This document shows, piece by piece, positions 15,668 through 43,636 of a stretch of DNA of 64,000 nucleotides; position 1 is the first letter of the stretch, and the number at the start of each line of letters is the position of its first letter. The notes beneath the pieces were generated by a model. That model worked only from the letters and a program-made list of their open reading frames with translations. It was not told the origin of the DNA and did no database searches. Both the position numbers and the translations under genes were made by a program. The stretch is from Rhizobium terrae. Its GTDB lineage: Bacteria > Pseudomonadota > Alphaproteobacteria > Rhizobiales > Rhizobiaceae. The stretch is from positions 310,001 to 374,000 of the forward strand of contig NZ_QJKM01000005.1 in the NCBI RefSeq assembly GCF_003425685.1. The letters are read 5' to 3'.

Positions 15668-15693
15668 GGAACCAATCCTCACGGACTGGTGTT
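15668..15693 (+). promoter_or_regulatory. EcfG-type stress promoter of treZ (GGAAC-N18-GTT)
   Basis: GGAAC at 15668-15672 and GTT at 15691-15693 are separated by 18 bases. The expected start, about 7 bases on, leaves a leader of roughly 25 bases before the treZ ATG. Confidence 0.6.
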
Positions 15694-15724
15694 CCCTTGG
15701 ACCTGTTGGAACCAAGGAGATGTC

Positions 15725-17584
15725 ATGTCCCTGACCCGAGATTTCACGCAGTTCGATTCACGCAACGAAGCCTCCGTGCGCCCTTTCGAGCGTGCTTTCC
15801 CCAAGTTCTGGGGCGCCGAATATCTAGGTAACGGAGAGGTCACCTTTCGTTTGTGGATGCCTGAGGCGGAACGCCTGCGTGTGCGGATCGCCGACCGCAA
15901 TCGGGAAATGCTGCCAGCCGGCGACGGCTGGTTCACACTGACCACGGAAGATGTTGCGCCGGGCACATCCTATCGGTTCGTGATGCCTGACGGCGTCGCC
16001 ATGCCGGATCCGGCTTCGCGCGCCCAGCATGGCGGTATCGACGGACCTTCGATCGTCATCGATCCCACCTTCTTTCGCTGGCATGCGACCGACTGGCAGG
16101 GCCACGCCTGGGAGGAGGCGATCCTCTACGAGATCCATATCGGCACTTTTACGCCTGAAGGCACCTTTCTCGCCGCGATCGGCAGGTTGCGGGAACTGGC
16201 GGACCTCGGCATCACCGTGCTGCAGCTCATGCCGGTCAATCAGTTTCCGGGCGAGCGCGGCTGGGGTTACGATGGCGTGCTGCCCTATGCACCGCATCAT
16301 GCCTACGGTTCGCCCGACGACATGAAGGCTTTCGTCGACGCTGCGCACCGGCATGGGCTGTCGGTGATGCTCGATGTGGTCTACAATCATTTCGGTCCGC
16401 TCGGCAACCTGTTCGATCGTTATGTGCCGTCCTTCTTCGATCCCGAGCGGACGACGCCCTGGGGGCCGGCGATCAATTTCGCCCAGCCCCAAGTGCGACG
16501 TTTCTTCATCGAGAACGCCCTCTACTGGCTGGAGGAATACAATCTCGACGGGTTGCGCCTCGATGCCGTCGATCAGATCAATGACGACGCTTCGGACGTT
16601 CACTTCCTGACCGAGCTGGCGCAACGGGTCCGCCGCGAAGTGGCGGGACGCCGGCGGCATCTCGTCATGGAGGACCACCGCAACATCACCGGTTATCTGG
16701 AACGAAACCGCACTGGCGAGGCACTTCTTTATGAGGCCGGATGGAATCACGATGTCCATCATGCGGCGCATGTGATCGCCACCGGCGAGACGACGGGATA
16801 TGTGGAGATTTTTGCCGAGCGGCCGGTCGCAAAGCTCGCGCGGGGCTTGGCGGAGGGTTTTATCTATCAGGGCGAGGCATCGCCAAAGGGAGAGGCGCGT
16901 GGAGAGCGCAGCGGTCATCTGCCGCCCTCGGCCTTCATCAATTTCCTGCAGAACCACGACCAGGTCGGCAATCGCGCCGAAGGCGAGCGGCTGATTTCGC
17001 TTGCCGATCCGCGGATGCTGCGCGTCATGACGGCGATGCTGATCCTCTCGCCGCAGATTCCCATGCTGTTCATGGGCGAGGATTACGGCGAGGTTCGCAG
17101 CTTCCGCTTCTTCAGCGATTACGAGGGAGAGCTGGCCCGGGCGGTCTGGCACAACCGGATCAACGAGGCCGCCAGTTTCGGCGGCATTCCGGCGGGCGTT
17201 TCGAACCCGGAAGATATAGCCGATCCCAATCGGCCGGAGACGTTCGAGCGTTCAAAACTCGGCTGGGACCACGCCTGGTCCCTGGAAGGACAATCGTTCC
17301 GGGATCGTCTCGCCGTCCTCATCGCCAAGCGCCAGGAACATGTGGTTCCAGGCCTGCGTTTCGCGCCCCCCCATTCGGGCCAGACGCTGCAGGCCGAGGA
17401 GGGCATCGTCGCGATCGACTGGCGGCTGGGAGACCGGCTACTTCAGCTTCGAGCCAATCTGTCGACGGCGGCCAAGCCGGTTCCGTCCGTTTCCGGCATG
17501 GTCTTTCATGCCGAAGCGTCCGGGCTCGAGGACGGGAGACTGCTTCCGGGCCTCTCGATGGCGATGGCAGTATCGGTCGATTGA
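15725..17584 (+). CDS. treZ: Maltooligosyl trehalose trehalohydrolase (GH13)
   Basis: A 619-residue GH13 enzyme expected to release trehalose from maltooligosyl-trehalose in the cytoplasm. An N-terminal CBM48-like domain (about 25-110) is followed by the barrel with LYEIHIGTFTPEGTF, DVVYNHFGPLGNL, nucleophile Asp280 (GLRLDAVD), acid/base Glu316 (VMEDHRN) and FLQNHDQVGNR. The length suits TreZ. The start ATG follows AAGGAG. A stress-type promoter precedes it, fitting trehalose as an osmoprotectant. TreY, the expected partner, is not in the window. A related branching-type activity cannot be excluded. Confidence 0.83.
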   Translation: MSLTRDFTQFDSRNEASVRPFERAFPKFWGAEYLGNGEVTFRLWMPEAERLRVRIADRNREMLPAGDGWFTLTTEDVAPGTSYRFVMPDGVAMPDPASRAQHGGIDGPSIVIDPTFFRWHATDWQGHAWEEAILYEIHIGTFTPEGTFLAAIGRLRELADLGITVLQLMPVNQFPGERGWGYDGVLPYAPHHAYGSPDDMKAFVDAAHRHGLSVMLDVVYNHFGPLGNLFDRYVPSFFDPERTTPWGPAINFAQPQVRRFFIENALYWLEEYNLDGLRLDAVDQINDDASDVHFLTELAQRVRREVAGRRRHLVMEDHRNITGYLERNRTGEALLYEAGWNHDVHHAAHVIATGETTGYVEIFAERPVAKLARGLAEGFIYQGEASPKGEARGERSGHLPPSAFINFLQNHDQVGNRAEGERLISLADPRMLRVMTAMLILSPQIPMLFMGEDYGEVRSFRFFSDYEGELARAVWHNRINEAASFGGIPAGVSNPEDIADPNRPETFERSKLGWDHAWSLEGQSFRDRLAVLIAKRQEHVVPGLRFAPPHSGQTLQAEEGIVAIDWRLGDRLLQLRANLSTAAKPVPSVSGMVFHAEASGLEDGRLLPGLSMAMAVSVD

Positions 17585-17607
17585 TTGGCCGCCGATCCCA
17601 AAAGGCC

Positions 17608-17632
17608 GGAACAAACCCTGCTGGCCGGGGTT
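17608..17632 (+). promoter_or_regulatory. EcfG-type stress promoter of the BON gene (N17)
   Basis: GGAAC (17608-17612), 17 bases, GTT (17630-17632), ending 68 bases before the BON-domain start codon. Confidence 0.65.
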
Positions 17633-17700
17633 CGGATGGTGTCCCGTCGGCGCGGGATTCCATCCAGTCGAGGGACCAATCCAGATTGAGGAGACAGACA

Positions 17701-18543
17701 ATGGCTAACGGAAATTATTCCCAGTCAGGCGGGTATCGCAATGACCGCAGGCGCGACGAGCGCGATTTCTCTCGTGACGATTCCACATTCTCTCGCGAAG
17801 GTGGCCACGAGCCCTCCAGCGAATACCGGCCGGGCGACACCGGTTATGTACGCGGTTTCGGCGACCAGCAGCGCGATGGCGACAATACTTTCGGCGGCCG
17901 CGAGGAAAGCGACCGCTCGCGCTTCTCCCGTTATGGCCGCAGCGAACAATGGGCGGGCGACGATTTCGGATATGGCGATACGGAACGGTCGCGCGCCTGG
18001 GCCCGCGAATCCTACAGGGGCAACCCGTCCTCGTTCAGCTACGAGCCCGGCCGCAATCGCTCCGGACAGTCCTTCGGCGACCGCTACGGTTATGGTTCCG
18101 ACCAACGCGACAGCTTTGGAAACCGGTATGGTTATGGCGGCGAGAATCGTTCCCGATCCTCGGATGAGCATGGCCGCAAGCGCTCGTTCATGGAGCGGGC
18201 CGGCGACGAGGTCTCCTCCTGGCTTGGCGACGAGGAAGCCGAACAGCGGCGCATGATGGATGCCCATCGCGGCAAAGGCCCCAAGGGCTATCAGCGTTCC
18301 GACGCCCGCATCGAAGAAGATGTCAATGATCGATTGAGCGACGATCCCATCCTCGACGCGTCGAACATCACCGTGACGGTGAAGGAAGGAGAAGTGACGC
18401 TCGACGGCTTCATTTCGAGCCGTTGGGACAAGCGTCGGGCAGAAGATCTGGTAGACGGCATTTCCGGAGTTCGGCACGTGCAGAACAACCTGCGTGTCAA
18501 CAATATTTCCACCAATACCCTGAGCGGATCGACAACCATCTGA
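17701..18543 (+). CDS. BON-domain protein with a long Arg/Gly/Tyr-rich low-complexity region
   Basis: A 280-residue protein. Residues 1-170 are low complexity, rich in Arg, Ser, Gly, Asp and Tyr with repeated RYGYG-like units and no signal peptide. Residues about 205-270 form one BON domain (ARIEEDVNDRLSDDP ... VTVKEGEVTLDGFISSRWDKRRAEDLVDGISGVRHVQNNLRV). BON domains bind membranes or other surfaces, and stress-induced cytoplasmic or periplasmic versions are common in rhizobia. It follows treZ by 116 bases with its own stress-type promoter. The disordered N-terminus is longer than in most family members. Exact function unknown. Confidence 0.75.
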   Translation: MANGNYSQSGGYRNDRRRDERDFSRDDSTFSREGGHEPSSEYRPGDTGYVRGFGDQQRDGDNTFGGREESDRSRFSRYGRSEQWAGDDFGYGDTERSRAWARESYRGNPSSFSYEPGRNRSGQSFGDRYGYGSDQRDSFGNRYGYGGENRSRSSDEHGRKRSFMERAGDEVSSWLGDEEAEQRRMMDAHRGKGPKGYQRSDARIEEDVNDRLSDDPILDASNITVTVKEGEVTLDGFISSRWDKRRAEDLVDGISGVRHVQNNLRVNNISTNTLSGSTTI

Positions 18544-18764: not shown

Positions 18765-20474
18765 ATGCGCGGAATGTTTAGGATTTCGCGTTTTTTTCCA
18801 ACGGCGCCCATCGGCGCTTACCTGGTCGCCCTCACGGCCGGCGTCGCACTGCCTTTGCTGATCTTTGTCGGTTATCTGATGATGGAGCTGGAGTCCAACG
18901 AGCGGGAAATCCTTGCGAACGAGACGGCCGAGGATGCCCAGCTCATCGCGCGTTCGGTTGATCGCGAACTTCAGGACATGGCAACCACCCTCAGGCTGCT
19001 GGTGACGTCGCCGGAGCTCGAACGGGGCGATCTGCGGGCCTTCCACAACCGGACGCAAAACAGCCTGCGATCCAATTCGCTCTACGTGCTTGTCGTCAAT
19101 CGGGACGGTCAGCAGCGGCTCAACACCCGCGTTCCCTTCGATACGCAGCTCGGCAAGATGTCCAATGTCGCGTCATTGGAATCTGTCCTCAAGACAGGCG
19201 TCACCGAAGTTTCCAACGTCTTTTTCGGCGTGACCAGCGGCAAGCATGTGTTCAACGTCACCATGCCGCTGCCCAAGGAGATTTCGTATTCCGGCTCTGC
19301 GATGATCATCACGCAGAATGCCGAGGACCTGCAGAAGCTCATCTCGACGGAGGGGCTTCCAACAGGCTGGACCATGGCGGTCGTCGACGGCTCCGGACAT
19401 GTGGTGACGTCGCTCGGCGCAGGTGCGCTGCCGCCCGGTACGGCTTTTCCCGCCAACACGCTGAAGCTGATGACCGGTTTCAAGGGTACGATCGAGGATG
19501 TGGATGGCGATCTGAAGCAGATGTACGGCTATGCGCAGATTACCGGCTGGACCTGGAAGGCCGTTGTCTGGGGGCCGATCGACGCGGCGCAGGCGAGCAT
19601 CCTGACCACCTGGCGGCAGTTGATTGCCGGCGGAGTCATCTTCCTCGCCGTCGGCATGCTGATCGCCTGGCTGGTCGGGCGCCAGCTTCGCATTCCGATC
19701 CGGCAGATCGCCGAGATGGCCGAGCGGATCGGCCGTGGCGAAATCGTTTCTCCGGTGCAGACCAAGATCCGCGAAGCCAACCAGGTGGCGATCGCTCTTT
19801 CGAACGCATCCTTCGACCGCAGCCAGGCAGAAGACCGCATCCATCTCATCCTGCACGAACTCGTCCACCGCACCAAGAACATCCTGACGCTGGTGCAGGC
19901 GATGATGCGCCAGCTCGCCCGGCAAGACACGACGATGGAGGAGTTCCAGAAGGCGATCGGCAACCGCCTGCAAGGGCTCGGAAAATCGATCGAGGCGCTG
20001 GCGAAGGAACAATGGGCGGGCGTTTCGATCCGCCGGGTGGTAGAAATCCACATGAGCACGTTTGCGGAAGTCGCCGATCGTGTCGAATTGCAGGGCCTGG
20101 ATTTCACGCTCAAGGCGGAAGCGGTGCAGAACCTCGGCCTCGTCCTGCACGAACTCGCCACCAATTCCGTCAAATACGGTGCGCTTTCCGTGCCGCAGGG
20201 CAAGGTGCACATCACTTGGAAGGACGTGGTGGACGAAAAGGAAGAGGAGCCCCTGCTTCGCCTCATCTGGGAGGAAAGGGACGGGCCGTCCGTGCGCGAA
20301 CCTTCCCGTACCGGTTTCGGCACGACGATCATCAAGCGTCATGCATCGGCCGCCTTCCGGGGGCATGTGGATGTAAATTTCCATCCCGCAGGTCTTTGCT
20401 GGATCCTGACCGCTCCCCGCGCCGCATTCGAACGCGGGGAAGGCGGCGACACGCTTGCGGATATAGCAATCTGA
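18765..20474 (+). CDS. HWE-family sensor histidine kinase with extracytoplasmic sensor
   Basis: A 569-residue membrane kinase. TM1 (about 20-42), an extracytoplasmic Cache-like region (45-275), TM2 (about 285-305), a HAMP segment (LRIPIRQIAEMAERIGRGE) and an HWE kinase core follow in order. Core motifs are the His in HELVHRTKNILTLV, LGLVLHELATNSVKYGALS and GFGTTII, with the WEERDGP of HWE ATPase domains. HWE kinases often feed the PhyR/NepR/EcfG stress pathway. Its place among stress-type promoters makes that plausible here, but no PhyR is in the window. The ATG follows GAGGTAA. No stress promoter is seen directly upstream. Confidence 0.82.
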   Translation: MRGMFRISRFFPTAPIGAYLVALTAGVALPLLIFVGYLMMELESNEREILANETAEDAQLIARSVDRELQDMATTLRLLVTSPELERGDLRAFHNRTQNSLRSNSLYVLVVNRDGQQRLNTRVPFDTQLGKMSNVASLESVLKTGVTEVSNVFFGVTSGKHVFNVTMPLPKEISYSGSAMIITQNAEDLQKLISTEGLPTGWTMAVVDGSGHVVTSLGAGALPPGTAFPANTLKLMTGFKGTIEDVDGDLKQMYGYAQITGWTWKAVVWGPIDAAQASILTTWRQLIAGGVIFLAVGMLIAWLVGRQLRIPIRQIAEMAERIGRGEIVSPVQTKIREANQVAIALSNASFDRSQAEDRIHLILHELVHRTKNILTLVQAMMRQLARQDTTMEEFQKAIGNRLQGLGKSIEALAKEQWAGVSIRRVVEIHMSTFAEVADRVELQGLDFTLKAEAVQNLGLVLHELATNSVKYGALSVPQGKVHITWKDVVDEKEEEPLLRLIWEERDGPSVREPSRTGFGTTIIKRHASAAFRGHVDVNFHPAGLCWILTAPRAAFERGEGGDTLADIAI

Positions 20475-20494: not shown

Positions 20495-20519
20495 GGAACG
20501 AAGCAGCGTTCCCGCCGTT
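20495..20519 (+). promoter_or_regulatory. EcfG-type stress promoter of topoisomerase IB (N17)
   Basis: GGAAC (20495-20499), 17 bases, GTT (20517-20519). Only 9 bases separate it from the ATG, so the transcript would have almost no leader. Confidence 0.6.
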
Positions 20520-20528: not shown

Positions 20529-21575
20529 ATGGACGCACTGATTAGCCCGATCGATGTCGATCAAAATTCCCTTGAAATCATCGGCCTCACCTACGTTTCC
20601 GATACGGAGCCCGGCATCCGGCGCCTGCGTCGCGGCAAGGGTTTCTGCTATCGCCTGCCAGATGGAAAGCTCCTTGCCGATGAGGAGGAAAGGCGCAGGA
20701 TCGCGGCGCTCGGTCTGCCGCCGGCCTACGAAAATGTCTGGATCTGCCTCGATCCGCGCGGCCATCTGCAGGCGACAGGCTATGATTCCCGCGGCCGCAA
20801 GCAGTATCGCTACCACGCGGACTGGCAGAATTTCCGCAGTGAGCGCAAGTTCGATCAGTTGCTGCGGTTTGGCGAGGCACTGCCGCGCATTCGCAACAAG
20901 GCGAGACGGGATTTGGCCGCCGGGCTCGACAAATCCGATGCAGTGATCGCCGCCCTCGTGTCGCTGATGGATGCGACGCACCTGCGCGTCGGCAATCGGG
21001 CCTATGCGCGGGAAAACAGGACCTATGGGGCGACGACGCTGCTCAAGCGTCACATGATGCTGTCCGGCGACGCGATCATGCTGCGCTTCACAGCCAAGGG
21101 CGGCAAGCGGGTACGGCATACGTTGAAGCATCCGCGCCTGCAGCACATTCTTGAAGAGATCGCCGACCTGCCGGGGCGGCAGCTGTTTTCCTGGCCGGAC
21201 GAGCAAGGCGTACCGCGCCCGGTCGATTCGGGACGTCTGAACGCTTATCTCGCCAAGGCGGCCGGATTTCCGGTATCGGCCAAGACTTTCCGCACCTGGG
21301 GCGGCAGTCTGGCGGCCTTTATGGCAGCCTGGCATCACGTGAAGGCGGGAGGCGGCCGTCCCAGGATCCGGACGATGGCGAAAGCGGCGGCGGAAGCCTT
21401 GCACAACACGCCGGCCGTCTGCCGGTCGAGCTATATCCATCCCGCCATTCTCTCGCTTTCGCAAGACATATCGCTGCTGGAGAAGGTGATGGCGGAACGG
21501 CCGATGGTGAACGGCTCGAAAGGATTGCGCGCCGACGAACGGCGCCTGCTGGCATTTCTGCGGGAGGTCGCCTGA
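20529..21575 (+). CDS. DNA topoisomerase IB (eukaryotic/poxvirus-like)
   Basis: A 348-residue monomeric type IB topoisomerase that relaxes supercoils through a 3'-phosphotyrosyl link. Visible family features are an N-terminal domain (GIRRLRRGKGFCYRLPDGK), the catalytic core with RNKARRDL, LMDATHLRVGNRAYARENRTYGATTLL and FTAKGGKRVRHTL, and the nucleophile Tyr in CRSSYIHP. Length is normal for bacterial TopIB. The ATG at 20529 is preferred over the one 39 bases upstream because that one falls before the stress promoter. No Shine-Dalgarno is visible. It probably belongs to the stress and DNA-damage group around it. Confidence 0.85.
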   Translation: MDALISPIDVDQNSLEIIGLTYVSDTEPGIRRLRRGKGFCYRLPDGKLLADEEERRRIAALGLPPAYENVWICLDPRGHLQATGYDSRGRKQYRYHADWQNFRSERKFDQLLRFGEALPRIRNKARRDLAAGLDKSDAVIAALVSLMDATHLRVGNRAYARENRTYGATTLLKRHMMLSGDAIMLRFTAKGGKRVRHTLKHPRLQHILEEIADLPGRQLFSWPDEQGVPRPVDSGRLNAYLAKAAGFPVSAKTFRTWGGSLAAFMAAWHHVKAGGGRPRIRTMAKAAAEALHNTPAVCRSSYIHPAILSLSQDISLLEKVMAERPMVNGSKGLRADERRLLAFLREVA

Positions 21576-21632: not shown

Positions 21633-22193
21633 TCAGGCCGCCCGGCGGTTATGGCGCCCTTCCTTCACTTCCTCCACGATCTTATCGACAAACTGCTTCA
21701 AGTCCTTGGGAGAGCGCGAGGTGATGATGCCGTTGTCGACGACGACTGCTTCGTCTTTCCACGAGGCGCCCGCATTGCGGACATCGCTGCGGATCGAAGG
21801 ATAGGACGTGGCCTTGCGGCCCCGCAACGCATCGGCCTCGACGAGAAGCCAGGGGCCATGGCAGATCGCTGCCACCGGCTTGCCGCTTTTGACGAAGTCG
21901 CGCACCACTTTCACCGCATCCTCGTTGACGCGCAGCAGATCGGGGTTGATCTGACCGCCCGGCAGTACGAGCGCATCGAATTCTTCGGCCTTGACGTTCC
22001 TGGCCTCGATATCGACCGGAACGGTATCGCCCCAGTTCTTTTCGTCCCAGCTCTTGATTTCGCCGGCTTTGATGGATGCGATCTTCACGTTTGCACCGCG
22101 CTTTTTGAGCTCCTCAAGTGGAACGCGCAGCTCCGAGCGCTCGTAACCGTCCGTCGCGAGGATCAGAATGGTGGCGGACTCGATTGCGGTCAT
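21633..22193 (-). CDS. DJ-1/PfpI-family protein (PfpI-like protease or deglycase)
   Basis: A 186-residue class I glutamine-amidotransferase-like protein. It contains ILATDGYERSELRVPLEELKKRG at the start, the nucleophile elbow VAAICHGPWLL with its Cys, and an upstream Glu in the conserved place. Such proteins act as general stress proteins, proteases or deglycases. It lies 116 bases downstream of a small stress-promoter gene on the same strand and may be read from that promoter. The ATG follows AAGGAGACA. Confidence 0.85.
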   Translation of the reverse strand: MTAIESATILILATDGYERSELRVPLEELKKRGANVKIASIKAGEIKSWDEKNWGDTVPVDIEARNVKAEEFDALVLPGGQINPDLLRVNEDAVKVVRDFVKSGKPVAAICHGPWLLVEADALRGRKATSYPSIRSDVRNAGASWKDEAVVVDNGIITSRSPKDLKQFVDKIVEEVKEGRHNRRAA

Positions 22194-22309: not shown

Positions 22310-22507
22310 TCAGAGGCGGCCGGTAGAAAGGTCCCGGCCGTTGATCGAGGCCGGCACGCTGATTTCCTCACGGGGCGACTTGGGCAGCGGCAGAACCACT
22401 GCTTCAGGCACGACGACCTGCAGCTCTTCCGGATGGGCCACGGCAAAGGTCTTTTTCTGGTTCGTGCCGATCAGCCTGTTTCTCAGCATCTTGAAAAAGT
22501 GTCGCAT
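22310..22507 (-). CDS. Small conserved-looking hypothetical protein (65 aa)
   Basis: A short basic protein beginning MRHFFKMLRNRLIGTN and continuing with a Val/Pro-rich stretch (LQVVVPEAVVLPLPKSPRE). The ATG is taken because GGGAGA lies at suitable distance; a longer in-frame extension would overlap the promoter. A stress-type promoter ends about 54 bases upstream. No domain recognised and no signal peptide. It leads a probable two-gene unit with the PfpI gene. Confidence 0.5.
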   Translation of the reverse strand: MRHFFKMLRNRLIGTNQKKTFAVAHPEELQVVVPEAVVLPLPKSPREEISVPASINGRDLSTGRL

Positions 22508-22560: not shown

Positions 22561-22585
22561 AACCCGTCGCCTCCGGATTCGTTCC
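22561..22585 (-). promoter_or_regulatory. EcfG-type stress promoter, minus strand (N17)
   Basis: On the minus strand GGAAC (22585-22581), 17 bases, GTT (22563-22561). It reads toward the 65-residue gene and pfpI, and is divergent from the coxB promoter 40 bases away. Confidence 0.65.
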
Positions 22586-22625: not shown

Positions 22626-22650
22626 GGAACAAAACCCTGGGTAGGGCGTT
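22626..22650 (+). promoter_or_regulatory. EcfG-type stress promoter of the caa3 oxidase operon (N17)
   Basis: GGAAC (22626-22630), 17 bases, GTT (22648-22650), followed by the coxB-type gene about 55 bases on. Confidence 0.65.
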
Positions 22651-22704
22651 TGGCGCCGAATGTTCTCGCGGCCTGCGGCTGCGGCAACCAACGGGTCGGG
22701 CCGA

Positions 22705-23772
22705 ATGAATAATGACCGCTTGACCGGCGCCTGCCGGCCAATCCGATCAGAAAAAAATTGCGGCCCTCCGGCCTTCCAGAGCAGATGCCGGCGTTTCATC
22801 CGTCCATTCATTTCAAGCCTTCTTTCCTGTCCGTTTCTTATCGCCTGTTCGGGCGTCCAGTCGACGCTTGATCCGGCCGGCCGCGAAGCGGCGGATGTGG
22901 CGGCGCTGTTCCTCGCCATGCTCGCCGGGGCGGTCGTGATCTGGGCCGGCGTCGCCGGCCTGCTCTTTTATGCCGCCCGCCAGAAACGGGGCCATTCGGA
23001 GAAGGGTGCGGGCCAACTCATTCTGTGGGGCGGGGCGATTTTTCCGACCGTCGTGCTCGCCGCGCTGCTTTCCTATACCGTCTGGCTGATGCCGAATGTG
23101 CGGCCCTGGTTCCAGGGAGAGGAGGGCCGTATGCGAATCGAGGTGACCGGCGAACAGTTCTGGTGGCGGGTACGCTATCTGGAGGAGGGTGGAAATGTCG
23201 CCTTCGAGACCGCCAACGAGGTGCGCCTTCCGATCGGCGAGCGCGTCGTCTTTTCCCTGAAAACGCCCGATGTCATCCATTCCTTCTGGATTCCCGTGCT
23301 CGGCGGCAAGATGGACATGATTCCCGGCCGTGAAAACCGGCTGACGCTGCTCGCCGAAAAGCCCGGTACCTATCGCGGCGTCTGCGCCGAGTTCTGCGGC
23401 GCGTCGCATGCGCTCATGGCGTTTACCGTGCATGCCGTGGAGAAACCGGCCTTCGAGACGTGGATGACGGCGCGTCGGGCATCGTCCGGAGCGCAGGACG
23501 CGGAAGGGCTGGCGCTTTTTCTGAAACACGGCTGTTCTGCCTGTCATGCCATCTCAGGCACCGAGGCGCAGGGCAGGATCGGCCCTGATCTCACCGCCTT
23601 CGGCGAACGCGGTTCGGTTGCAGCCGGTACGCTGCCCAACCTTGAAGAACATATCGCCCGGTTCATCCGCGATCCCGACCGGATCAAGCCGAAAGTGCTC
23701 ATGCCCCATTTTTCTATGCTGCCAGAAGCGGAAACCGATCGTATCGCCGCCTACCTGAAAGGGCTCAAATGA
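22705..23772 (+). CDS. coxB: caa3-type cytochrome c oxidase subunit II fused to cytochrome c
   Basis: A 355-residue subunit II. A lipoprotein-like signal (LLSCPFLIAC-SG) and two TM helices precede the cupredoxin domain with the CuA set (CAEFCGASHALM). A C-terminal class I cytochrome c domain has CSACH and a distal Met near LMPHFSM. Electrons pass from cytochrome c through CuA to subunit I. The start is uncertain: this ATG leaves about 45 residues before the lipobox, and an earlier ATG at 22660 would give a near-leaderless message. The next gene starts 4 bases before the end of this one (ATGA). Confidence 0.8.
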   Translation: MNNDRLTGACRPIRSEKNCGPPAFQSRCRRFIRPFISSLLSCPFLIACSGVQSTLDPAGREAADVAALFLAMLAGAVVIWAGVAGLLFYAARQKRGHSEKGAGQLILWGGAIFPTVVLAALLSYTVWLMPNVRPWFQGEEGRMRIEVTGEQFWWRVRYLEEGGNVAFETANEVRLPIGERVVFSLKTPDVIHSFWIPVLGGKMDMIPGRENRLTLLAEKPGTYRGVCAEFCGASHALMAFTVHAVEKPAFETWMTARRASSGAQDAEGLALFLKHGCSACHAISGTEAQGRIGPDLTAFGERGSVAAGTLPNLEEHIARFIRDPDRIKPKVLMPHFSMLPEAETDRIAAYLKGLK

Positions 23773-34117: not shown

Positions 34118-34142
34118 AACGGATGCCACGCGGAAAAGTTCC
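34118..34142 (-). promoter_or_regulatory. EcfG-type stress promoter of the DUF2934 gene (N17)
   Basis: Minus-strand GGAAC (34142-34138), 17 bases, GTT (34120-34118). Confidence 0.65.
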
Positions 34143-34211: not shown

Positions 34212-34236
34212 GGAACTTTTTGCAGTCCAGAAGGTT
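34212..34236 (+). promoter_or_regulatory. EcfG-type stress promoter (N17)
   Basis: GGAAC (34212-34216), 17 bases, GTT (34234-34236), 28 bases before the ATG at 34265. Confidence 0.65.
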
Positions 34237-34264: not shown

Positions 34265-34513
34265 ATGGAAAAATACTGCGATATCGTTCCGCACGCAACC
34301 GGCTGGGTCTATGTAATCGACGGAGTTCAGTCTGCGTCTTATTACCACACCTATGACCTCGCCATGAACGCCGCACATGCACATCTTGCCCGGATCGGTG
34401 CATCCGGCGACAAGGTTTTCCGACGCCAGGCGCCGAACGGGGAGATGCTGCCCGTGTCGATGCTTGCCAAGGGCCTGCCGGGATCGGTTTTGAGGGTTTC
34501 GCTTTCAGCCTGA
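34265..34513 (+). CDS. DUF2188-like small protein
   Basis: An 82-residue protein. IVPHATGWVYVIDGVQSASY, then DLAMNAAHAHLARIG and VFRRQAPNGEML, reproduce the beta-beta-helix-beta pattern of DUF2188 proteins, though the match is loose. The ATG follows GGGAAGGAGA. It has its own stress-type promoter. Family function unknown. Confidence 0.6.
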   Translation: MEKYCDIVPHATGWVYVIDGVQSASYYHTYDLAMNAAHAHLARIGASGDKVFRRQAPNGEMLPVSMLAKGLPGSVLRVSLSA

Positions 34514-35226: not shown

Positions 35227-35252
35227 AACAACCGAAGGGCGTTTATGGTTCC
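35227..35252 (-). promoter_or_regulatory. EcfG-type stress promoter of the DUF892 gene (N18)
   Basis: Minus-strand GGAAC (35252-35248), 18 bases, GTT (35229-35227). Confidence 0.6.
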
Positions 35253-35944: not shown

Positions 35945-35972
35945 GGAACTGGCGGGCCGATCGAAATGTTCC
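35945..35972. promoter_or_regulatory. Palindromic, possibly bidirectional EcfG-type promoter (GGAAC-N18-GTTCC)
   Basis: GGAAC (35945-35949) and GTTCC (35968-35972) give a complete -35/-10 set on both strands, with 18 bases between GGAAC and GTT in either direction. Minus-strand reading leads to the isochorismatase gene after about 38 bases. Confidence 0.55.
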
Positions 35973-35985: not shown

Positions 35986-36011
35986 GGAACGGTCGCCTCG
36001 GTCATCGCGTT
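35986..36011 (+). promoter_or_regulatory. EcfG-type stress promoter (N18)
   Basis: GGAAC (35986-35990), 18 bases, GTT (36009-36011), 40 bases before the ATG at 36052. It is a second plus-strand candidate, better placed than the palindromic site. Confidence 0.55.
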
Positions 36012-36051: not shown

Positions 36052-36393
36052 ATGCAGGACAGGTTGAAGGTCTATCGGCTGGTGCCGATCGCGCGGGCGG
36101 ACGACCCCAATTGGCAGAACGCCCGAGCCCGTGGCGAGGCGCATGGCGAAGTAATCGTGAGGGCGAAGACCACGGGCGACGCCCGTCTCGTCGCCAGCCA
36201 GGCGGAACTCGATTTCATGGAAATCGACGCCGCGCCGTCCGAAGGCAATTCCACCGAAATGGCAAGCGCCTTCCGCAGCGAAAAACTCTATACGGTGATC
36301 GAGGACAACAGCGGCCGGTTCGCACAAAACGGACCACGAGGCGTGATCGGCGGCCGGGTGCCTGTCGACAACATTATCTCGACCCAGCTGTGA
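36052..36393 (+). CDS. Hypothetical stress-promoter protein (113 aa)
   Basis: Starts MQDRLKVYRLVPIARADDPN and ends GVIGGRVPVDNIISTQL. It is a soluble, mixed alpha/beta-looking protein with no recognised domain. Residues about 20-45 (QNARARGEAHGEVIVRAKTTGDARLVAS) look like a small sheet. The ATG follows GGGAGAATGAC. It has its own stress-type promoter. Confidence 0.6.
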   Translation: MQDRLKVYRLVPIARADDPNWQNARARGEAHGEVIVRAKTTGDARLVASQAELDFMEIDAAPSEGNSTEMASAFRSEKLYTVIEDNSGRFAQNGPRGVIGGRVPVDNIISTQL

Positions 36394-36417: not shown

Positions 36418-36597
36418 TCAGCCAGCCGTGCCGTCGGCCTTTTCGTTGAGAGCCTTCTGCAGTTCGCGCGCCAGTTCAAGCAGGCGGTCGGGAACGTCTT
36501 CCTTCTCGATCTCGCTCAGCAGGACGGAAACCTGACGGTTGACCCGCCGCCCAAACCTGATTTCCTGTTCCGCAACCGGAGTGCTGTCTTTCGCCAT
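36418..36597 (-). CDS. 59-residue NepR-like small protein (candidate anti-sigma factor)
   Basis: The frame starts MAKDSTPVAEQEIRFGRRVN and continues through two helices to EDVPDRLLELARELQKALNE. NepR anti-sigma factors are about 60 residues and carry a helix, a conserved (E)PVPDR-type turn and a second Leu-rich helix. The VPDR turn and second helix match well, but the first helix is about four residues longer than usual. AGAGG precedes the ATG. NepR sequesters EcfG until phosphorylated PhyR releases it; an EcfG gene lies 5 kb away. It could instead be an unrelated small helical protein. Confidence 0.45.
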   Translation of the reverse strand: MAKDSTPVAEQEIRFGRRVNRQVSVLLSEIEKEDVPDRLLELARELQKALNEKADGTAG

Positions 36598-36797: not shown

Positions 36798-37899
<1,102 letters not shown>

Positions 37900-37990: not shown

Positions 37991-40495
37991 CTACTTCTTC
38001 CCCTTGAATTCGATCGGCCTTTCCGCCTTGCGAAAATCCCCCCATGGGTCCTTCTCCTGCTGGGCAATCCGCGCCACGGCGTTGCCCACCGTGAAGTAAT
38101 TCGGCCCGATCGCGCCGCCGAGTTCGTCCCATTCGACCGGCATCGAGACCGGGGCACCGGGGCGGGCGCGGGTGGAGTAGGGGGCGACGGCGGTGTTGCC
38201 GCGGCCGTTCCTCAGATAATCGATCAGGATCTTGCCCTTGCGTTTCGACTTGGTGATGGTCGAGACGTACCTGTCCGGATCGTCGCCGGCCATGCCGTCG
38301 GCGAGCGCCTTCATCGCCGCCTTCACCTCCGGCCATTCCGCCTTGGGCTTCACCGGGGCGACGACATGCAGGCCCTTGCCGCCCGAGGTCTTCACGAAGG
38401 CGACGAGGCCCATCTCCTCGAAACGGCGTTTCACCTCGTGCGCGGCGGCAATGATATCCGTCCAGGAGACGCCTTCGCCCGGATCGAGGTCTATGTTGAC
38501 CATGTCCGGCTTTTCCCAGTCGCCGAGGTTCGATCCCCAGGGATGGATTTCCAGCGTCCCGCCCTGCACGAGGCCGAGCAGTCCGTCGAGATCGCGGATG
38601 GTGATATCCTCTTCGGCGGGATCGGCCGGGTCCTTGACCAGGACCGCGTTCCTGGTCATGCCTTTCCAGCCGTGCTTCTGGAAGAACAGTTGACCGTTGA
38701 TGCCGTCCGGACCGCGGATCAGCGCCAGCGGCCGGTTGACCACGAAAGGCGCCATCAGCCGCCAGACCTCGGTGTAATAGTCGGCAAGGCCTGCCTTGGT
38801 CACGCCGGCATCCGGCCAGTAGACCCGGTCGGGATGGGTGAGATTGACCGTCCGTTTCGGCGGCTTCGGCGCTTCGGCTGCATTCACGGGTACGCCCTCC
38901 CGGACGATATCCTTTGGGTCCTTGTCTTCCCGCAGGCCCCGGAAGGAGGCGTGCCGGATATGGGCGTCCGCCGTCCAGCCGCGGAACTCCACTTCCGCCA
39001 CCAGTTCGGGCTTGATGAACACCACATCCTTCTTTTCCACCCCGGCGAGCTTTTCGTCAAACGGGCTCTTGTCGGTTCGCAGATCGTCGAGGCGCCTGAA
39101 GAGCGATTGCGCCACCGCATTCGAATACCCGGTGCCGACCCGCCCGGCATGCCGCAGCTTGCCCTTTTCGTAATAGCCCATGACCAGCGAACCGATAGCC
39201 TTGGAATTGACGGAGGAGGGGACGTAACCGGCGACCACGAATTCCTGCCGTGCGGAACATTTCGACTTTACCCAATCACGACCGCGGCCGGATCGATAGG
39301 GGGCGTCGGCGACTTTGGAGATGATCCCTTCCAGGCTGAGGCGGCAGGCGTGTTTCAGCACCAGCCCGCCCTCGTCGCCGAAATGTTCGCTGTAGCGCAG
39401 GGCAGGGCCGATGCCGGTCAGGAGCTTCTCCAAAGTCTCTTTGCGTTTGAGAAGCGTCATCCCGGTCAGGTCATAACCGTCGAGATGGAGCAGATCGAAA
39501 GCATAAAAGGTGAACCGGTCATCGCGGCCCTCGCTCAGGTCCTCCTGCAGGAGCGAAAAATCCGTCGCGCCGGAACCGGCCTCGACTGCGACTTCGCCGT
39601 CGATGATCGCCTCCGAGACGTCGAGTTTTTCGAATTCCGCGATGATTTCATCGCCGAATTTGTGCGTCCAATCGAGGCCTGTGCGGGTGAGCAGTGTCAC
39701 CCTGCCGTCGGCGATACGGGCCAGCAGGCGATAGCCGTCGAGCTTGATCTCATGGATCCAGCGCTTGCCGGAGGGCGCATTCTTCACCAGCGTCGCCAGT
39801 TGCGGATCGACGAAATCCGGAAGTCCGGCCTTCCTTGCGCCCTTGATCTTCGAGACCGGAATATCGGCCCTTTCAGGCTCCGGTGCGGTCTTGACGCTGG
39901 CCTTCACCGCTCGTTTCTTCGCCGCCGGCTTGCGGCCCCAGATGGCGTCGAGCGTCCTGCCCGATTTCACCGAAAGCGGCAGCTCGTCCAGAATGTCCCT
40001 GTCGCCTTCGGCACGGGCGAACTCGTCCTCGCCTTTGATCAGCAGCCAGTTCTCGCGCTTCTCGCCTTGCTTCCGGCCCATGCGGATCAGGTGCCAGCGG
40101 CCTTCCAGCTTCTCGCCCTTCAGCTCGAATTCCATATGCCCCTTCTTATAGGCCTTGTGCGGATCGCCGACCGGCTCCCAGCTGCCGCGGTCCCACAGAA
40201 GCACGGCACCGGCGCCGTAATTGCCTTCGGGGATCGTGCCTTCGAAACCGCCGTAATCGAGCGGATGGTCCTCGACATGCACGGCCAGCCGTTTTTCGCC
40301 GGGCACCAGGCTCGGGCCGCGCGTCACGGCCCAGCTTTTCAGCACGCCGTCCATTTCCAGCCGGAAATCGTAATGCAGGCGGGTCGCGTCATGTTTCTGG
40401 ATGACGAAACTGTTGCCGCTCGCCTTGGCTTTCTTCCCGCGCGGTTCGGGAGAGGCCTTGAAATTCCGCTTCTGGTTATAGGTTTCGAGCGCCAT
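37991..40495 (-). CDS. ligD: ATP-dependent DNA ligase LigD (PE-ligase-polymerase)
   Basis: An 834-residue multifunctional end-joining enzyme. The N-terminal phosphoesterase domain is at about 30-150 (HYDFRLEMDGVLKSWAVTRG, HVEDHPLDYGGFEGTIPEGN). The ligase domain is at about 225-510, with adenylated Lys251 in HEIKLDGYR. The C-terminal primase-polymerase domain is at about 545-830, with NIDLDPGEG metal ligands and KTSGGKGLHVV. Domain order PE-LIG-POL is the usual one outside mycobacteria. Its ATG comes 2 bases after the ku2 stop, forming a ku2-ligD operon. Confidence 0.93.
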   Translation of the reverse strand: MALETYNQKRNFKASPEPRGKKAKASGNSFVIQKHDATRLHYDFRLEMDGVLKSWAVTRGPSLVPGEKRLAVHVEDHPLDYGGFEGTIPEGNYGAGAVLLWDRGSWEPVGDPHKAYKKGHMEFELKGEKLEGRWHLIRMGRKQGEKRENWLLIKGEDEFARAEGDRDILDELPLSVKSGRTLDAIWGRKPAAKKRAVKASVKTAPEPERADIPVSKIKGARKAGLPDFVDPQLATLVKNAPSGKRWIHEIKLDGYRLLARIADGRVTLLTRTGLDWTHKFGDEIIAEFEKLDVSEAIIDGEVAVEAGSGATDFSLLQEDLSEGRDDRFTFYAFDLLHLDGYDLTGMTLLKRKETLEKLLTGIGPALRYSEHFGDEGGLVLKHACRLSLEGIISKVADAPYRSGRGRDWVKSKCSARQEFVVAGYVPSSVNSKAIGSLVMGYYEKGKLRHAGRVGTGYSNAVAQSLFRRLDDLRTDKSPFDEKLAGVEKKDVVFIKPELVAEVEFRGWTADAHIRHASFRGLREDKDPKDIVREGVPVNAAEAPKPPKRTVNLTHPDRVYWPDAGVTKAGLADYYTEVWRLMAPFVVNRPLALIRGPDGINGQLFFQKHGWKGMTRNAVLVKDPADPAEEDITIRDLDGLLGLVQGGTLEIHPWGSNLGDWEKPDMVNIDLDPGEGVSWTDIIAAAHEVKRRFEEMGLVAFVKTSGGKGLHVVAPVKPKAEWPEVKAAMKALADGMAGDDPDRYVSTITKSKRKGKILIDYLRNGRGNTAVAPYSTRARPGAPVSMPVEWDELGGAIGPNYFTVGNAVARIAQQEKDPWGDFRKAERPIEFKGKK

Positions 40496-40497
40496 GA

Positions 40498-41394
40498 TCA
40501 GCCGGCCTTTCTGTGAGCCGCCTTTCCGGAGGCGGCGGTCTTACGCGATACGGTTTTCCCGGCTCGGGCCTTCGTTCCAGCAGTCTTTTTTTTCGCCGTT
40601 TTCTTCGAGGACGCCGAACTTCCGGCGCTCTGACGCAGGGCATCGAGGAGGCTCGAAACCGTCTGCGGTTGCGGCGCCGGCTTCCTGCGGATCTTGCGGC
40701 CTTCGATCTTCGCCTTGATCAGTTCGGCGAGTGCCGCCTCGTAGCGGTCGTCGAACTCCGTCGGATCGAACGTGCCCTTCTTCGTGCCGATGATATGCTC
40801 GGCGAGATCGAGCATTTCGCCTTCGATCCTGAAGGTCTTGATGTCGGAAAAGATCTCCTTCGCCGGGCGCACCTCGTAGTCGTAGTTCAGGGTACTGGCG
40901 ACCATCCCCTCGTCGCTCGGGCGGATGAGCAGGGTCCTGAGGCGCCGGAAAAGAACGGTGCGGGCGAGGGCCGCGACATCCTTTTCCTTCAGGCTCCGGC
41001 GGATCAGGTCGAAAACGTCGGCGGCCGCCCTGTCGGCCGGCGCCAGGTAATACGGACGGTCGAGATAGATCGTATCGACCCCGTCGCAGGGAATGAATGT
41101 TTCGAGCTCCAGCGTCTTGTCGCTCTCCGGCAGGGCCGCCTTCACCTCGTCCGGCTCCAGGACGACGTATTGCCCGCTGGCAACCTCGTAACCCTTGACG
41201 ATGTCGTCGCCCTCGACCACCTTGCCGGTGTCGGCATCCAGCATTTCCCGGTGAACCCGGTTGCCGGTCTTGCGGTTGATGATGTGGAAGCTGACGCGGT
41301 CCGACGTGGAGGCCGCCGTATAGAGGGCCACGGGGCAGTTCAGCTCTCCGATCTTCAGGAAGCCTTTCCAGTTTGCGCGCGGTGTCACGATCAT
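40498..41394 (-). CDS. ku: Ku DNA end-binding protein, copy 2 (operon with ligD)
   Basis: A 298-residue Ku. The core begins ANWKGFLKIGELNCPVALYTA and includes FHIINRKTGNRVHREMLDAD. The C-terminal tail (about 235-298) is long and very Lys/Ala/Ser-rich (SSKKTAKKKTAGTKARAGKT), typical of Ku DNA-binding tails. It is the partner of the ligD gene directly downstream. A stress-type promoter lies about 20 bases upstream, divergent from ecfG. Rhizobia often carry several Ku genes; this one is the likely main LigD partner. Confidence 0.9.
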   Translation of the reverse strand: MIVTPRANWKGFLKIGELNCPVALYTAASTSDRVSFHIINRKTGNRVHREMLDADTGKVVEGDDIVKGYEVASGQYVVLEPDEVKAALPESDKTLELETFIPCDGVDTIYLDRPYYLAPADRAAADVFDLIRRSLKEKDVAALARTVLFRRLRTLLIRPSDEGMVASTLNYDYEVRPAKEIFSDIKTFRIEGEMLDLAEHIIGTKKGTFDPTEFDDRYEAALAELIKAKIEGRKIRRKPAPQPQTVSSLLDALRQSAGSSASSKKTAKKKTAGTKARAGKTVSRKTAASGKAAHRKAG

Positions 41395-41414: not shown

Positions 41415-41440
41415 AACCGGCCATCGGGCGGCTTTGTTCC
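41415..41440 (-). promoter_or_regulatory. EcfG-type stress promoter of ku2-ligD (N18)
   Basis: Minus-strand GGAAC (41440-41436), 18 bases, GTT (41417-41415), leaving a leader of about 14 bases. Confidence 0.65.
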
Positions 41441-41471: not shown

Positions 41472-41497
41472 GGAACCAAATGCGCAAGGCGTGCGTT
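41472..41497 (+). promoter_or_regulatory. EcfG-type promoter of the sigma factor gene (autoregulation, N18)
   Basis: GGAAC (41472-41476), 18 bases, GTT (41495-41497), 46 bases before the GTG start of the sigma gene. Confidence 0.65.
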
Positions 41498-41543: not shown

Positions 41544-42050
41544 GTGTCTGAATCACAGTTGAATGGTGATCCTGCACGTGCAGACATAGTGAGGCTCATT
41601 CCGGCTCTCCGCGCATTTGCTCGTACTTTCTGCCGCAATCCGACCGATGCGGACGATCTCGTACAGGAAACGCTGATGAAAGCGCTTGCGAACCTCGACA
41701 AGTTCGAGCCGGGCACCAAGCTGAAGAGCTGGCTCTTCACCATCATGCGCAACACGTTCTACACGCGTGCAAAAGTGCTGGGCCGCGAGGCGCCGGGCAT
41801 AGAGGAAAACGTGTCGGGCGACACGCCGATTGCCGCAAACCAGGAAACGGCGGCGCGGGCGCGGGAGGTGCAGCGGGCGCTGCAGAAACTGCCGCCGCAT
41901 TACCGCGAGGTTCTGACCCTGGTCGCGATCCTCGGCGAGAGCTACGAGGCGGCGGCGGAGATCTGCGATTGCGCGGTCGGAACGGTCAAAAGCCGGCTCA
42001 ACAGGGCACGCCATCAGATCCTGCAGGAATTGGGAGAAGAGGCGAACTGA
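41544..42050 (+). CDS. ecfG: EcfG-family ECF sigma factor (general stress response)
   Basis: A 168-residue sigma factor with only regions 2 and 4. Region 2 has RLIPALRAFARTFCRNPTDADDLVQETLMKAL and FEPGTKLKSWLFTIMRN, the EcfG signature. Region 4 has LPPHYREVLTLVAILGESYEAAAEICDCAVGTVKSRLNRAR. GTG start with GGGAGAGG upstream. No PhyR is encoded beside it, so it is probably a secondary EcfG copy rather than the one in the classical phyR-nepR-ecfG locus. Its own promoter matches the motif it should recognise, implying positive autoregulation. Confidence 0.85.
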   Translation: MSESQLNGDPARADIVRLIPALRAFARTFCRNPTDADDLVQETLMKALANLDKFEPGTKLKSWLFTIMRNTFYTRAKVLGREAPGIEENVSGDTPIAANQETAARAREVQRALQKLPPHYREVLTLVAILGESYEAAAEICDCAVGTVKSRLNRARHQILQELGEEAN

Positions 42051-42165: not shown

Positions 42166-42891
42166 TCACGCCGGGTCCTCGTCGAGTTCCGGATAATGCC
42201 GGAATATGCCCGACTCGTTGAATGCGAGCCGGCGCTTCGACGCGAGATACGCCTCGATGTTGGGCCGCTGGCGAACTTCGTCCCGCAGTTTCGCAAGCCG
42301 GGGGTAATCTCCGTCGAAATTCCGCATGGCACGGGGAAACGCATAGGCGAGGCCTTCGGCGAGCTGGAAGAGCGACAGGTCCACATAGCTCAGCCCGTCT
42401 CCCACCGCATGGCCGCTCTTTGAGGGATTGGCCTCGATGATGCGGTTGAAATACCTCATGAATTTCGGCACCCGATGTTTCAGGAACGCCGCCGAACGAG
42501 CCTTCGCCTCGGGCTTCTGGTCCTCATAATAGTCGTTGGTGCTGATCGGGTGATGCGTATCGTGAACCTCCATGACGAAGTCCGCGATCGTCAGCTGCAG
42601 GCCGTGGGCGAAGATGCGGCTCTTCTCGTCTTCCGGCACGAGACCAAGTTTCGGGCCGAGATAATGCAGGATGTTCGCCACATGCGAGACGATGAGGTCC
42701 CCGTCCTTCAGGAAGGGCGGCGCGAACGGCATGTCGTGGCCGTGCCTGCCGTGAATATAGTCCATCATCTTCGGCGTGCCGCGGTCGCCGCGGGCGACAT
42801 CGACATAGTCGGCGCCGGCTTCTTCGAGCGCCAGCCGCACATATTCGCCGCGGCCCTGAAGGCCGTCCCAGTAATAAAGCTCGTAAGTCAT
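42166..42891 (-). CDS. Glutathione S-transferase
   Basis: A 241-residue GST. The N-terminal thioredoxin-like domain (MTYELYYWDGLQGRGEYVRLALEEAG) has the GRGE pattern of mu/sigma-like enzymes, with the cis-Pro region near MPFAPPFLKDGDLIVSHVANIL. The C-terminal helical domain includes DGLSYVDLSLFQL. It starts 2 bases after the UdgX stop, so both share the udgX stress promoter. Likely detoxifies electrophiles; substrate unknown. Confidence 0.82.
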   Translation of the reverse strand: MTYELYYWDGLQGRGEYVRLALEEAGADYVDVARGDRGTPKMMDYIHGRHGHDMPFAPPFLKDGDLIVSHVANILHYLGPKLGLVPEDEKSRIFAHGLQLTIADFVMEVHDTHHPISTNDYYEDQKPEAKARSAAFLKHRVPKFMRYFNRIIEANPSKSGHAVGDGLSYVDLSLFQLAEGLAYAFPRAMRNFDGDYPRLAKLRDEVRQRPNIEAYLASKRRLAFNESGIFRHYPELDEDPA

Positions 42892-42893
42892 TT

Positions 42894-43529
42894 TCACTCC
42901 AGAAACTCTGCAATCTTTTCCAGGTCCTCGACAAAACGGGCGCGGTTCATCTCCGCATCCGGCTGATCGAGGGTCCGCAACAAAGCGGAAGGGTGGATGG
43001 TCACCAGAACCGGCAAGCCGTCCGGCGATCGCAACACCGTGCCGCGGTCGCGGGTGACTTTCGCCTGCCGCCCGAGCAAGGCATAGAGCGCGGTGGCACC
43101 AAGCGCCACCGCAAGCGTCGGTCTCACGAGGCGTAATTCCGCCGCCAGCCACCAGGCGCAGGCCTGCACTTCGCCGGCATTCGGCTTGGAATGGATGCGG
43201 CGCTTGCCGCGCGGCGTGAACTTGAAATGTTTGACCGCGTTGGTGACGTAACAGAGGTCGCGGTCTATCCCCGCCTCGTCGAGGCAGCGGTCGAGCAGCT
43301 TGCCCGCCGGCCCAACGAAGGGTTTTCCCGCAAGATCTTCCTTGTCTCCCGGCTGTTCCCCGACGAACAGCACTTTCGCCTTGGCCGGCCCTTCGCCGAA
43401 GACCAGATGCGTGGCGTTCCTGTAGAGATCGCAGCGGGTGCAGCCTTCCGCCTGCCGCTGGACTTCCGGCAACCTTCCGCCGTCTGCGCCCGGTGTCTCG
43501 AAGGCCGGTCCCTTGCGCGATGTCAGCAT
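42894..43529 (-). CDS. udgX: UdgX-type uracil-DNA glycosylase
   Basis: A 211-residue family 4-like glycosylase. It has the iron-sulphur Cys30/Cys33 pair, the GEQPGDKEDLAGKPFVGPAG active-site segment, and the UdgX-specific loop KRRIH at 109-113 in TPRGKRRIHSKPN. In UdgX the loop His attacks the abasic sugar and binds DNA covalently, so His113 is the expected linker. It lies in an operon with the GST gene and under a stress-type promoter, and adds base-damage handling to the Ku/LigD set. The start at MLTSRKGP is chosen because the longer frame runs through the promoter. Confidence 0.85.
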   Translation of the reverse strand: MLTSRKGPAFETPGADGGRLPEVQRQAEGCTRCDLYRNATHLVFGEGPAKAKVLFVGEQPGDKEDLAGKPFVGPAGKLLDRCLDEAGIDRDLCYVTNAVKHFKFTPRGKRRIHSKPNAGEVQACAWWLAAELRLVRPTLAVALGATALYALLGRQAKVTRDRGTVLRSPDGLPVLVTIHPSALLRTLDQPDAEMNRARFVEDLEKIAEFLE

Positions 43530-43555
43530 GATTTCAGCTCCTGTCGAAGCTTCAA

Positions 43556-43581
43556 AACCGGCTTGCCCGTGTGACGGTTCC
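43556..43581 (-). promoter_or_regulatory. EcfG-type stress promoter of udgX-gst (N18)
   Basis: Minus-strand GGAAC (43581-43577), 18 bases, GTT (43558-43556), 27 bases before the udgX ATG. Confidence 0.65.
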
Positions 43582-43610
43582 TTTAAATTTGCATGGCGGG
43601 AACAAGAGCT

Positions 43611-43636
43611 GGAACTTTTGCGCAAATCTTTTTGTT
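43611..43636 (+). promoter_or_regulatory. EcfG-type stress promoter of the glucose dehydrogenase (N18)
   Basis: GGAAC (43611-43615), 18 bases, GTT (43634-43636), about 63 bases before the gcd ATG. Confidence 0.6.

Follow-up and report, generated by a model that had tools for sequence, protein, structure and literature searches.

We analysed a 64-kb window of the Rhizobium terrae genome (the window is the whole stretch of 64,000 nucleotides, positions 310,001 to 374,000 of contig NZ_QJKM01000005.1). Our data imply that its block between positions 15668 and 43636 is probably a regulon island, centred on a sigma gene, within the alphaproteobacterial general stress response: EcfG-type promoters (GGAAC, 17 or 18 nucleotides, GTT) are packed around the gene of a non-canonical EcfG paralogue, which would act in a feed-forward circuit with a divergent NepR-like protein, NepR2, as proposed below. 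The sites, their positions, conservation and enrichment, and the NepR-like sequence are direct observations. The promoter, the sigma factor and the cargo are already known. What is apparently new is the packing around ecfG paralogues, repeated within one genome, across genera and on plasmids. No report of it was found in the mostly open-access literature searched (PMC3892343, PMC6599016, PMC4814048, PMC8103513, PMC3616915, PMC6180224), where the published accounts describe clustering of the phyR-nepR-ecfG core only; what we say of cited papers applies to the portions of their texts available to us.

An initial annotation of this DNA had listed 19 motif sites on the coding strand just before named genes and had held that far fewer would be expected at random. 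All 19 are present before exactly those genes, and in every case 9-68 nucleotides separate GTT from the start codon (gene starts are our predictions or choices: coxB at 22660 and ecfG at 41544, where the gene predictor preferred 22897 and 41676). The window contains 22 exact matches, all of them between 15668 and 43636, with none in the remaining 15.6 + 20.3 kb. The three matches beyond the 19 are two reverse faces of near-palindromic sites (15670, minus strand, at the treZ site; 35945, plus strand, also 81 nucleotides before the 36052 gene) and one match inside treZ (17335, plus strand). Dinucleotide shuffles of the window averaged 2.76 matches, with no more than 7 in any of them, which bears out the low random expectation, and the motif written backwards does not occur in the block at all, against 22 matches of the true motif (15 in promoter position by the gene predictor).

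The clustering also stands out against the whole genome. In 6.97 Mb the motif gives 358 strand hits (51 per Mb) and the backwards motif 314, so most matches elsewhere are probably due to chance, whereas the block reaches about 786 per Mb, some 15 times the genome average; an equal density throughout the genome, which by the initial annotation would refute its reading, is thus not what is seen. Near-palindromic sites were counted once per strand in strand-hit counts, controls included, and merged both in the densest-window scan and in the 10-kb counts of this genome given below. The scan, which used 345 of the 358 places, returned this very block as the densest 28-kb window of the genome (20 merged sites, 1.37 expected), and in 2000 uniform random placements the best 28-kb window never exceeded 11 sites. 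Twenty 20-kb background stretches taken at round positions held 12 sites and 18 reversed controls, two of each in promoter position.

Conservation points in the same direction. In the 19 loci whose ecfG is closest, the motif lies on the right strand in 171 of 286 regions upstream of matching genes (best tblastn hits, orthology not being implied), while the same regions hold the reversed motif four times and motifs of wrong spacing 4, 2, 1 and 7 times. In 61 more distant loci the motif was found in 65 of 186 upstream regions, with one reversed match and 0, 2, 6 and 4 matches of wrong spacing. Genes that stand behind or beside the proposed units in the close loci have no site: ligD 0/11, pfpI 0/6, tetR 0/15 and BON2 0/17. 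The treZ end is hardly covered by this test, as it lies beyond the 10-kb flanks of most loci. The treZ, BON, coxB and 29200 sites fall outside the tested loci; the latter three have counterparts in Neorhizobium galegae DS1978, and the treZ site has none. In that strain synteny with the block extends from BON to tetR (18 sites and two controls in 40 kb). Its stretch yielded no full-length treZ, no cox genes and no isochorismatase, and the site at the coxB position is retained, there preceding a cytochrome c gene. With GGAAC, a spacer of 17-18 nucleotides, GTT, a place just upstream on the coding strand and conservation before matching genes, the block sites are predicted to be EcfG-type promoters, and the promoter reading of the initial annotation is supported by position, wrong-spacing controls and conservation alike. 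Outside the motif, the consensus is too weak to separate EcfG paralogues by promoter preference.

One would argue that the sites are chance matches, or a by-product of short intergenic regions and divergent gene layout, since the genome count is barely over that of the reversed motif and in several relatives the control even outnumbers the motif genome-wide. However, reversed and wrong-spacing controls are near zero in the same upstream regions, shuffles never exceed seven matches and the motif is conserved across the 19 close loci. The shuffles, the reversed and wrongly spaced motifs and the background stretches together rule out an origin by chance or composition for the block sites, and the probability we leave to this explanation, refuted for the block, is negligible.

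The features of the block are listed here in window coordinates; fractions give the matching genes that have a site in the close (19) or distant (61) loci.

15668-15693, plus: EcfG-type site before treZ; near-palindrome, matching the other strand too; outside the conservation test
15725-17584, plus: treZ-like malto-oligosyltrehalose trehalohydrolase (Pfam Alpha-amylase and DUF3459; matches annotated treZ genes)
17608-17632, plus: EcfG-type site before the BON-domain gene; counterpart at the same place in N. galegae DS1978
17701-18543, plus: BON-domain protein (Pfam)
18774-20474, plus: HWE-family sensor histidine kinase (Pfam; dCache below cut-off), lacking an exact site of its own
20495-20519, plus: EcfG-type site before topIB; 1/1 close, 4/6 distant
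20529-21575, plus: DNA topoisomerase IB (Pfam)
22561-22585, minus: EcfG-type site before the 65-amino-acid gene and pfpI; 6/6 close
21633-22193, minus: DJ-1/PfpI family protein (Pfam)
22310-22507, minus: 65-amino-acid protein, no Pfam match
22626-22650, plus: EcfG-type site before the coxB operon; kept in N. galegae DS1978
22660-28559, plus: caa3-type oxidase operon with coxB, coxA-C, a 127-amino-acid protein, ctaG and cytochrome c (Pfam)
28728-28752, minus: EcfG-type site before the microprotein; 7/7 close
28621-28710, minus: microprotein of about 29 amino acids, start re-placed downstream of the promoter site
29146-29170, plus: EcfG-type site before the 29200 gene and glgX; counterpart at the same place in N. 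galegae DS1978
29200-29487, plus: 95-amino-acid protein, the 29200 gene (protein family search)
29800-31878, plus: glgX-like debranching enzyme (Pfam CBM_48 and Alpha-amylase; matches annotated glgX genes)
33565-33590, minus: EcfG-type site before glgA; 8/12 close
31952-33529, minus: glgA glycogen (starch) synthase (Pfam)
34118-34142, minus: EcfG-type site before the DUF2934 gene; 19/19 close
33728-34090, minus: DUF2934 protein (Pfam)
34212-34236, plus: EcfG-type site before the 34265 gene; 12/16 close
34265-34513, plus: 82-amino-acid protein, the 34265 gene, no Pfam match
35227-35252, minus: EcfG-type site before the DUF892 gene; 16/16 close
34678-35175, minus: DUF892 protein (Pfam)
35947-35972, minus: EcfG-type site before the isochorismatase gene; 5/5 close
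35315-35902, minus: isochorismatase-family protein (Pfam)
35986-36011, plus: EcfG-type site before the 36052 gene; 9/10 close
36052-36393, plus: 113-amino-acid protein, the 36052 gene, no Pfam match
36418-36597, minus: NepR-like small protein, candidate anti-sigma factor NepR2 (59-amino-acid open reading frame, sequence similarity)
37026-37051, minus: EcfG-type site before the 36798 gene; 13/16 close
36798-36992, minus: 64-amino-acid protein, the 36798 gene, no Pfam match
37052-37076, plus: EcfG-type site before ku1; 11/11 close
37102-37899, plus: Ku protein 1 (Pfam)
41415-41440, minus: EcfG-type site before ku2-ligD; 11/11 close
40498-41394, minus: Ku protein 2 (Pfam)
37991-40495, minus: LigD (ligase, polymerase, phosphoesterase), behind ku2; own site 0/11 close
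41472-41497, plus: EcfG-type site before ecfG; 18/19 close, 14/61 distant
41544-42050, plus: non-canonical EcfG-type sigma factor of 168 amino acids (Pfam, structure match, tree)
43556-43581, minus: EcfG-type site before udgX-gst; 6/6 close (udgX genes)
42894-43529, minus: uracil-DNA glycosylase superfamily protein (Pfam; the name UdgX is from the initial annotation)
42166-42891, minus: glutathione S-transferase family protein (Pfam)
43611-43636, plus: EcfG-type site before gcd; 15/18 close
43700-46042, plus: PQQ-dependent dehydrogenase (Pfam; the name gcd is from the same source)

The open reading frame of the microprotein (28621-28743) has 40 codons for amino acids, and translation probably begins at its second in-frame ATG (28710), the first one being overlapped by the promoter site. 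The HWE kinase between BON and topIB may be an input of the system, as such kinases are activators of the general stress response (PMC12148442). A PAS histidine kinase with a receiver domain lies just past the block (46490-48436); its close matching genes have a site in 4 of 13 cases, the window copy none. As to glgX (about 29850-31880), Cronobacter, Pantoea and Chimaeribacter plasmids match it at about 79-81% DNA identity, which suggests that this gene has moved between distant bacteria.

The sigma gene in the block is an EcfG-type (ECF15) gene, as the initial annotation had it, although it is a non-canonical paralogue. Its product matches Pfam Sigma70 r2 (2.9e-17), r4_2 (6.7e-17) and PhyR_sigma2 (3.3e-13), its best match in the Protein Data Bank (PDB) is 5uxx_A (8e-33), an entry that also contains NepR, and the closest EcfG elsewhere, from N. 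galegae DS1978, is 97% identical. No phyR adjoins the island ecfG. The canonical ecfG is situated 59 kb away on the same contig (C45:410.8-411.3 kb), adjoined by nepR, phyR and an HWE kinase (locus C45:410.7-412.4 kb). A genome search found ten homologues of extracytoplasmic function (ECF) sigma factors, the island one included; two of them are further non-canonical EcfG copies (C45:117 kb and, on another contig, C21:34 kb), which group with the factor of R. etli plasmid p42f in a tree that carries long-branch warnings. Within 10 kb of the four EcfG-type genes we counted 12, 9, 7 and 7 merged sites, where one is expected; around the six other ECF homologues the counts are 1, 2, 0, 0, 1 and 2. 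Clustering confined to the canonical locus is therefore rejected, as the three non-canonical genes are also clustered, and clustering around just any ECF gene is not seen.

We extended the comparison to 80 ecfG loci, the best 80 of 464 by ecfG similarity, chosen irrespective of the motif. They hold 635 sites and 85 controls in 1.57 Mb, and in promoter position the ratio is 365 to 13. Measured against the density of their own genomes (sizes rounded to 0.1 Mb; locus L097 assigned to the genome of L084, with which it shares a contig), 79 loci contain 623 sites in all against an expectation of 78.9, and the excess reaches p<0.001 in 55. This sum joins 49 loci picked once site counts were known (468 sites, 50.3 expected, 41 at p<0.001) and the remaining 30, which are poorer in sites (155, 28.6 expected, 14 at p<0.001). 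Across 71 full-length loci site density is highest at ecfG, with 852 sites per Mb in the 2 kb on its upstream side, and falls to 289 per Mb at -10 to -8 kb and 225 per Mb at +8 to +10 kb (controls 21-99 per Mb). Hence the clustering with a sigma gene inside, which the initial annotation called unusual, is real here but not peculiar to this genome: it recurs around many, though not all, ecfG paralogues.

Plasmids show the same arrangement. We inspected eleven plasmid loci, nine hand-picked among 40 listed together with those of R. etli and S. meliloti, and sites exceed controls in ten (sites/controls: L115 15/1, L116 15/1, L117 4/0, L118 7/2, L119 4/4, L120 13/0, L121 7/1, L122 11/0, L123 20/2, L124 14/0, L145 8/3). 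R. etli EcfG2 was taken to be RHE_RS26680, presumably PF00052, and S. meliloti RpoE5 was presumed to be the match at 1405360-1405836 on pSymB. The locus on pRACO34Aa (L124), a plasmid typed as conjugative, combines its 14 sites with ligD, glgX, a starch synthase and a trehalohydrolase. On the R. tropici CIAT 899 plasmid pRtrCIAT899c (L120) an identical 26-base site stands at 5960, 7148 and 7501, within 1.6 kb, as if a promoter had been duplicated; this is a possible route for new genes into the regulon. In another family, a 60-kb stretch of Chelatococcus caeni has 25 sites and no control. Of 34 queries, namely phyR and 33 proteins from the window region, it matches 12 in a different order, and these hits amount to about ten places since BON1/BON2 and ku1/ku2 share targets. 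The same stretch matches 11 of 15 proteins of C45:115-130 kb and 4 of 25 of C45:280-300 kb; seven other stretches of the R. terrae genome gave no or one match each, and the 34 queries match a single place in 400 kb of background from R. terrae itself. C45:115-130 kb and C. caeni have in common a run of about ten genes near ecfG, one being an epimerase by Pfam; others presumably resemble glycosyltransferases and a thiamine-pyrophosphate enzyme.

Such findings raise the notion that ecfG and its EcfG-promoted cargo, often with a NepR-like gene, move or recombine as a unit between chromosomes and plasmids, each unit bringing its own sigma factor. This is an account of origin, compatible with either mechanism weighed below. 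It would explain the plasmid loci, the conjugative-typed one among them, the changed gene order in C. caeni and the intermixing of plasmid and genome-contig copies in the EcfG tree. Contrastingly, the Pfam-searched proteins of the window include no integrase and its base composition shows no break (GC content 0.60-0.65 in the block and 0.60-0.66 outside), so that we see no sign of a mobile element of the prophage or integrative and conjugative type. Together with the synteny in N. galegae DS1978, this means that the island looks long settled in its lineage. We regard movement as a unit as a serious candidate that falls somewhat short of an even chance.

The block also encodes NepR2, which the initial annotation does not mention and which, judged by sequence similarity, is a candidate NepR-type anti-sigma factor. 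The VPDR turn is largely conserved in its family, and 17 of the 31 aligned members (31 of 50 NepR2 sequences, the window copy included) weakly match Pfam NepR, the best at 1.8e-4. A profile of the family finds only NepR2 itself and the canonical nepR (E 0.0047) in the genome at E up to 1. Among seven PDB matches at E up to 10 the top three are NepR chains (E 0.056-0.57), none significant alone. Relatives were found by tblastn with the window protein alone in 49 of the 80 ecfG loci and by the profile in 59, a figure that is partly circular because the profile was built from 31 sequences of the same loci. NepR2 matches 83 plasmid records; among the 20 listed, 13 also appear in the ecfG listings, and in 12 of these the match is at most 100 nucleotides from the ecfG hit, in Martelella about 3 kb away. 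An EcfG-type site precedes one of the 19 close copies of NepR2 and none of the 25 distant ones. Beside the two other non-canonical paralogues of the genome no NepR-like gene was found at E up to 1, and the difference in mean sites between loci with and without such a gene (8.6 and 7.4) is too small to claim.

The explanation that we prefer can now be stated in full. Some 19 short transcription units, each behind its own EcfG-type promoter, would serve DNA end-joining and repair, trehalose and glycogen metabolism, a caa3-type oxidase, a PQQ dehydrogenase, DUF892 and small proteins, and would surround the gene of the non-canonical paralogue, itself behind such a promoter (41472-41497). Stress would activate the canonical PhyR-NepR-EcfG switch, and canonical EcfG would turn on the whole island, the gene of the paralogue included; the paralogue would then reinforce the same promoters by feed-forward and self-activation. 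NepR2, mostly without an EcfG-type promoter, would restrain the paralogue until titrated and thereby set a threshold. Promoter activity, the EcfG that uses the sites, the feed-forward loop and the binding by NepR2 are what we infer.

One would argue instead that the island belongs to the canonical EcfG regulon like any other part of it, that the embedded EcfG is a minor or redundant target, and that the clustering reflects a shared history of accessory stress genes rather than local regulation. The promoter reading is common to both explanations, which differ on the role of the island sigma factor. Canonical phyR-nepR-ecfG is indeed present on the same contig, and clusters of sites exist without a nearby ecfG homologue, at C34:247-274 kb (12 merged sites) and C45:290-296 kb (7). 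In addition, S. meliloti RpoE5, the other ECF15 factor of that species, is activated by canonical RpoE2 and its overexpression raised only one putative target (PMC6180224), so that the embedded sigma factor may contribute little. However, site density peaks at ecfG in the full-length loci, all four EcfG-type genes of this genome lie within clusters, and R. etli EcfG1 and EcfG2 reportedly control distinct regulons (PMC3892343). We would rather not bet on the canonical regulon as the whole explanation, but it keeps a substantial minority share of our confidence.

Besides the RpoE5 result and the two clusters without ecfG, several other points weigh against the sigma-centred island with its own NepR. 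Only 14 of 61 distant ecfG genes have their own upstream site; 24 of the 79 loci do not reach p<0.001, one (L091) has no site at all and another (L097) has 8 sites and 7 controls; and E. adhaerens p1 (L119) is the plasmid where sites and controls are equal. The window NepR2 stays under the Pfam NepR cut-off (16.4 against 25.7 bits), and an interaction between NepR and a second EcfG was not found in Caulobacter and Sphingomonas, according to the R. etli paper (PMC3892343). As to the content of the two clusters, the former has a second treZ-like gene followed by an 846-amino-acid gene, possibly treY, and the latter a DUF892 gene, a PLD-domain protein and an endonuclease/phosphatase.

With the general stress response governed by EcfG, PhyR and NepR (RpoE2 in S. 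meliloti) the island shares the sigma type, the promoter motif, a NepR-like protein and regulon genes: in Sphingomonas melonis, Ku, topoisomerase IB, a trehalohydrolase and glgX depend on EcfG (PMC6599016). It differs in that target promoters are packed around a non-canonical ecfG without an adjoining phyR. The R. etli factor EcfG2 on plasmid p42f is likewise non-canonical and falls among the EcfG paralogues in the tree, and its stretch has 15 sites and one control in 40 kb, ferritin-like genes being among those preceded by a site. In R. etli, however, ecfG2 is described as not autoregulated, and the sole putative NepR known is encoded on the chromosome (PMC8103513), whereas a conserved EcfG-type promoter precedes the window copy, whose block also contains a NepR-like gene. 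RpoE5 on pSymB is also a non-canonical ECF15 factor with 8 sites and three controls in 40 kb, and an unannotated NepR-like open reading frame beside rpoE5 was noted earlier (PMC6180224), so the association of sigma factor and NepR-like protein is not wholly new; of promoter clustering around rpoE5 we found no mention in the available text of that paper. In Sinorhizobium plasmids this open reading frame abuts the sigma gene, while NepR2 is 4.9 kb from the island ecfG and the block is denser and longer.

The widespread extra copies of EcfG have been called not satisfactorily explained (PMC3892343). If ecfG paralogues sit in promoter islands of their own, many with a divergent NepR, the questions of the extra copies and of the missing NepR become directly testable, and island genes without known function become predictable as stress genes from sequence alone. 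The finding also suggests how a general stress response could be enlarged or transferred piece by piece. More tentatively still, and rather doubtful that it holds in general, we propose that EcfG paralogues of Hyphomicrobiales organise portable stress regulons, which travel in islands of readable promoters and often with a dedicated divergent NepR. If this is true, the gain of an island would add stress functions and their regulator together, which would go some way to account for the several ecfG copies kept by so many alphaproteobacteria.

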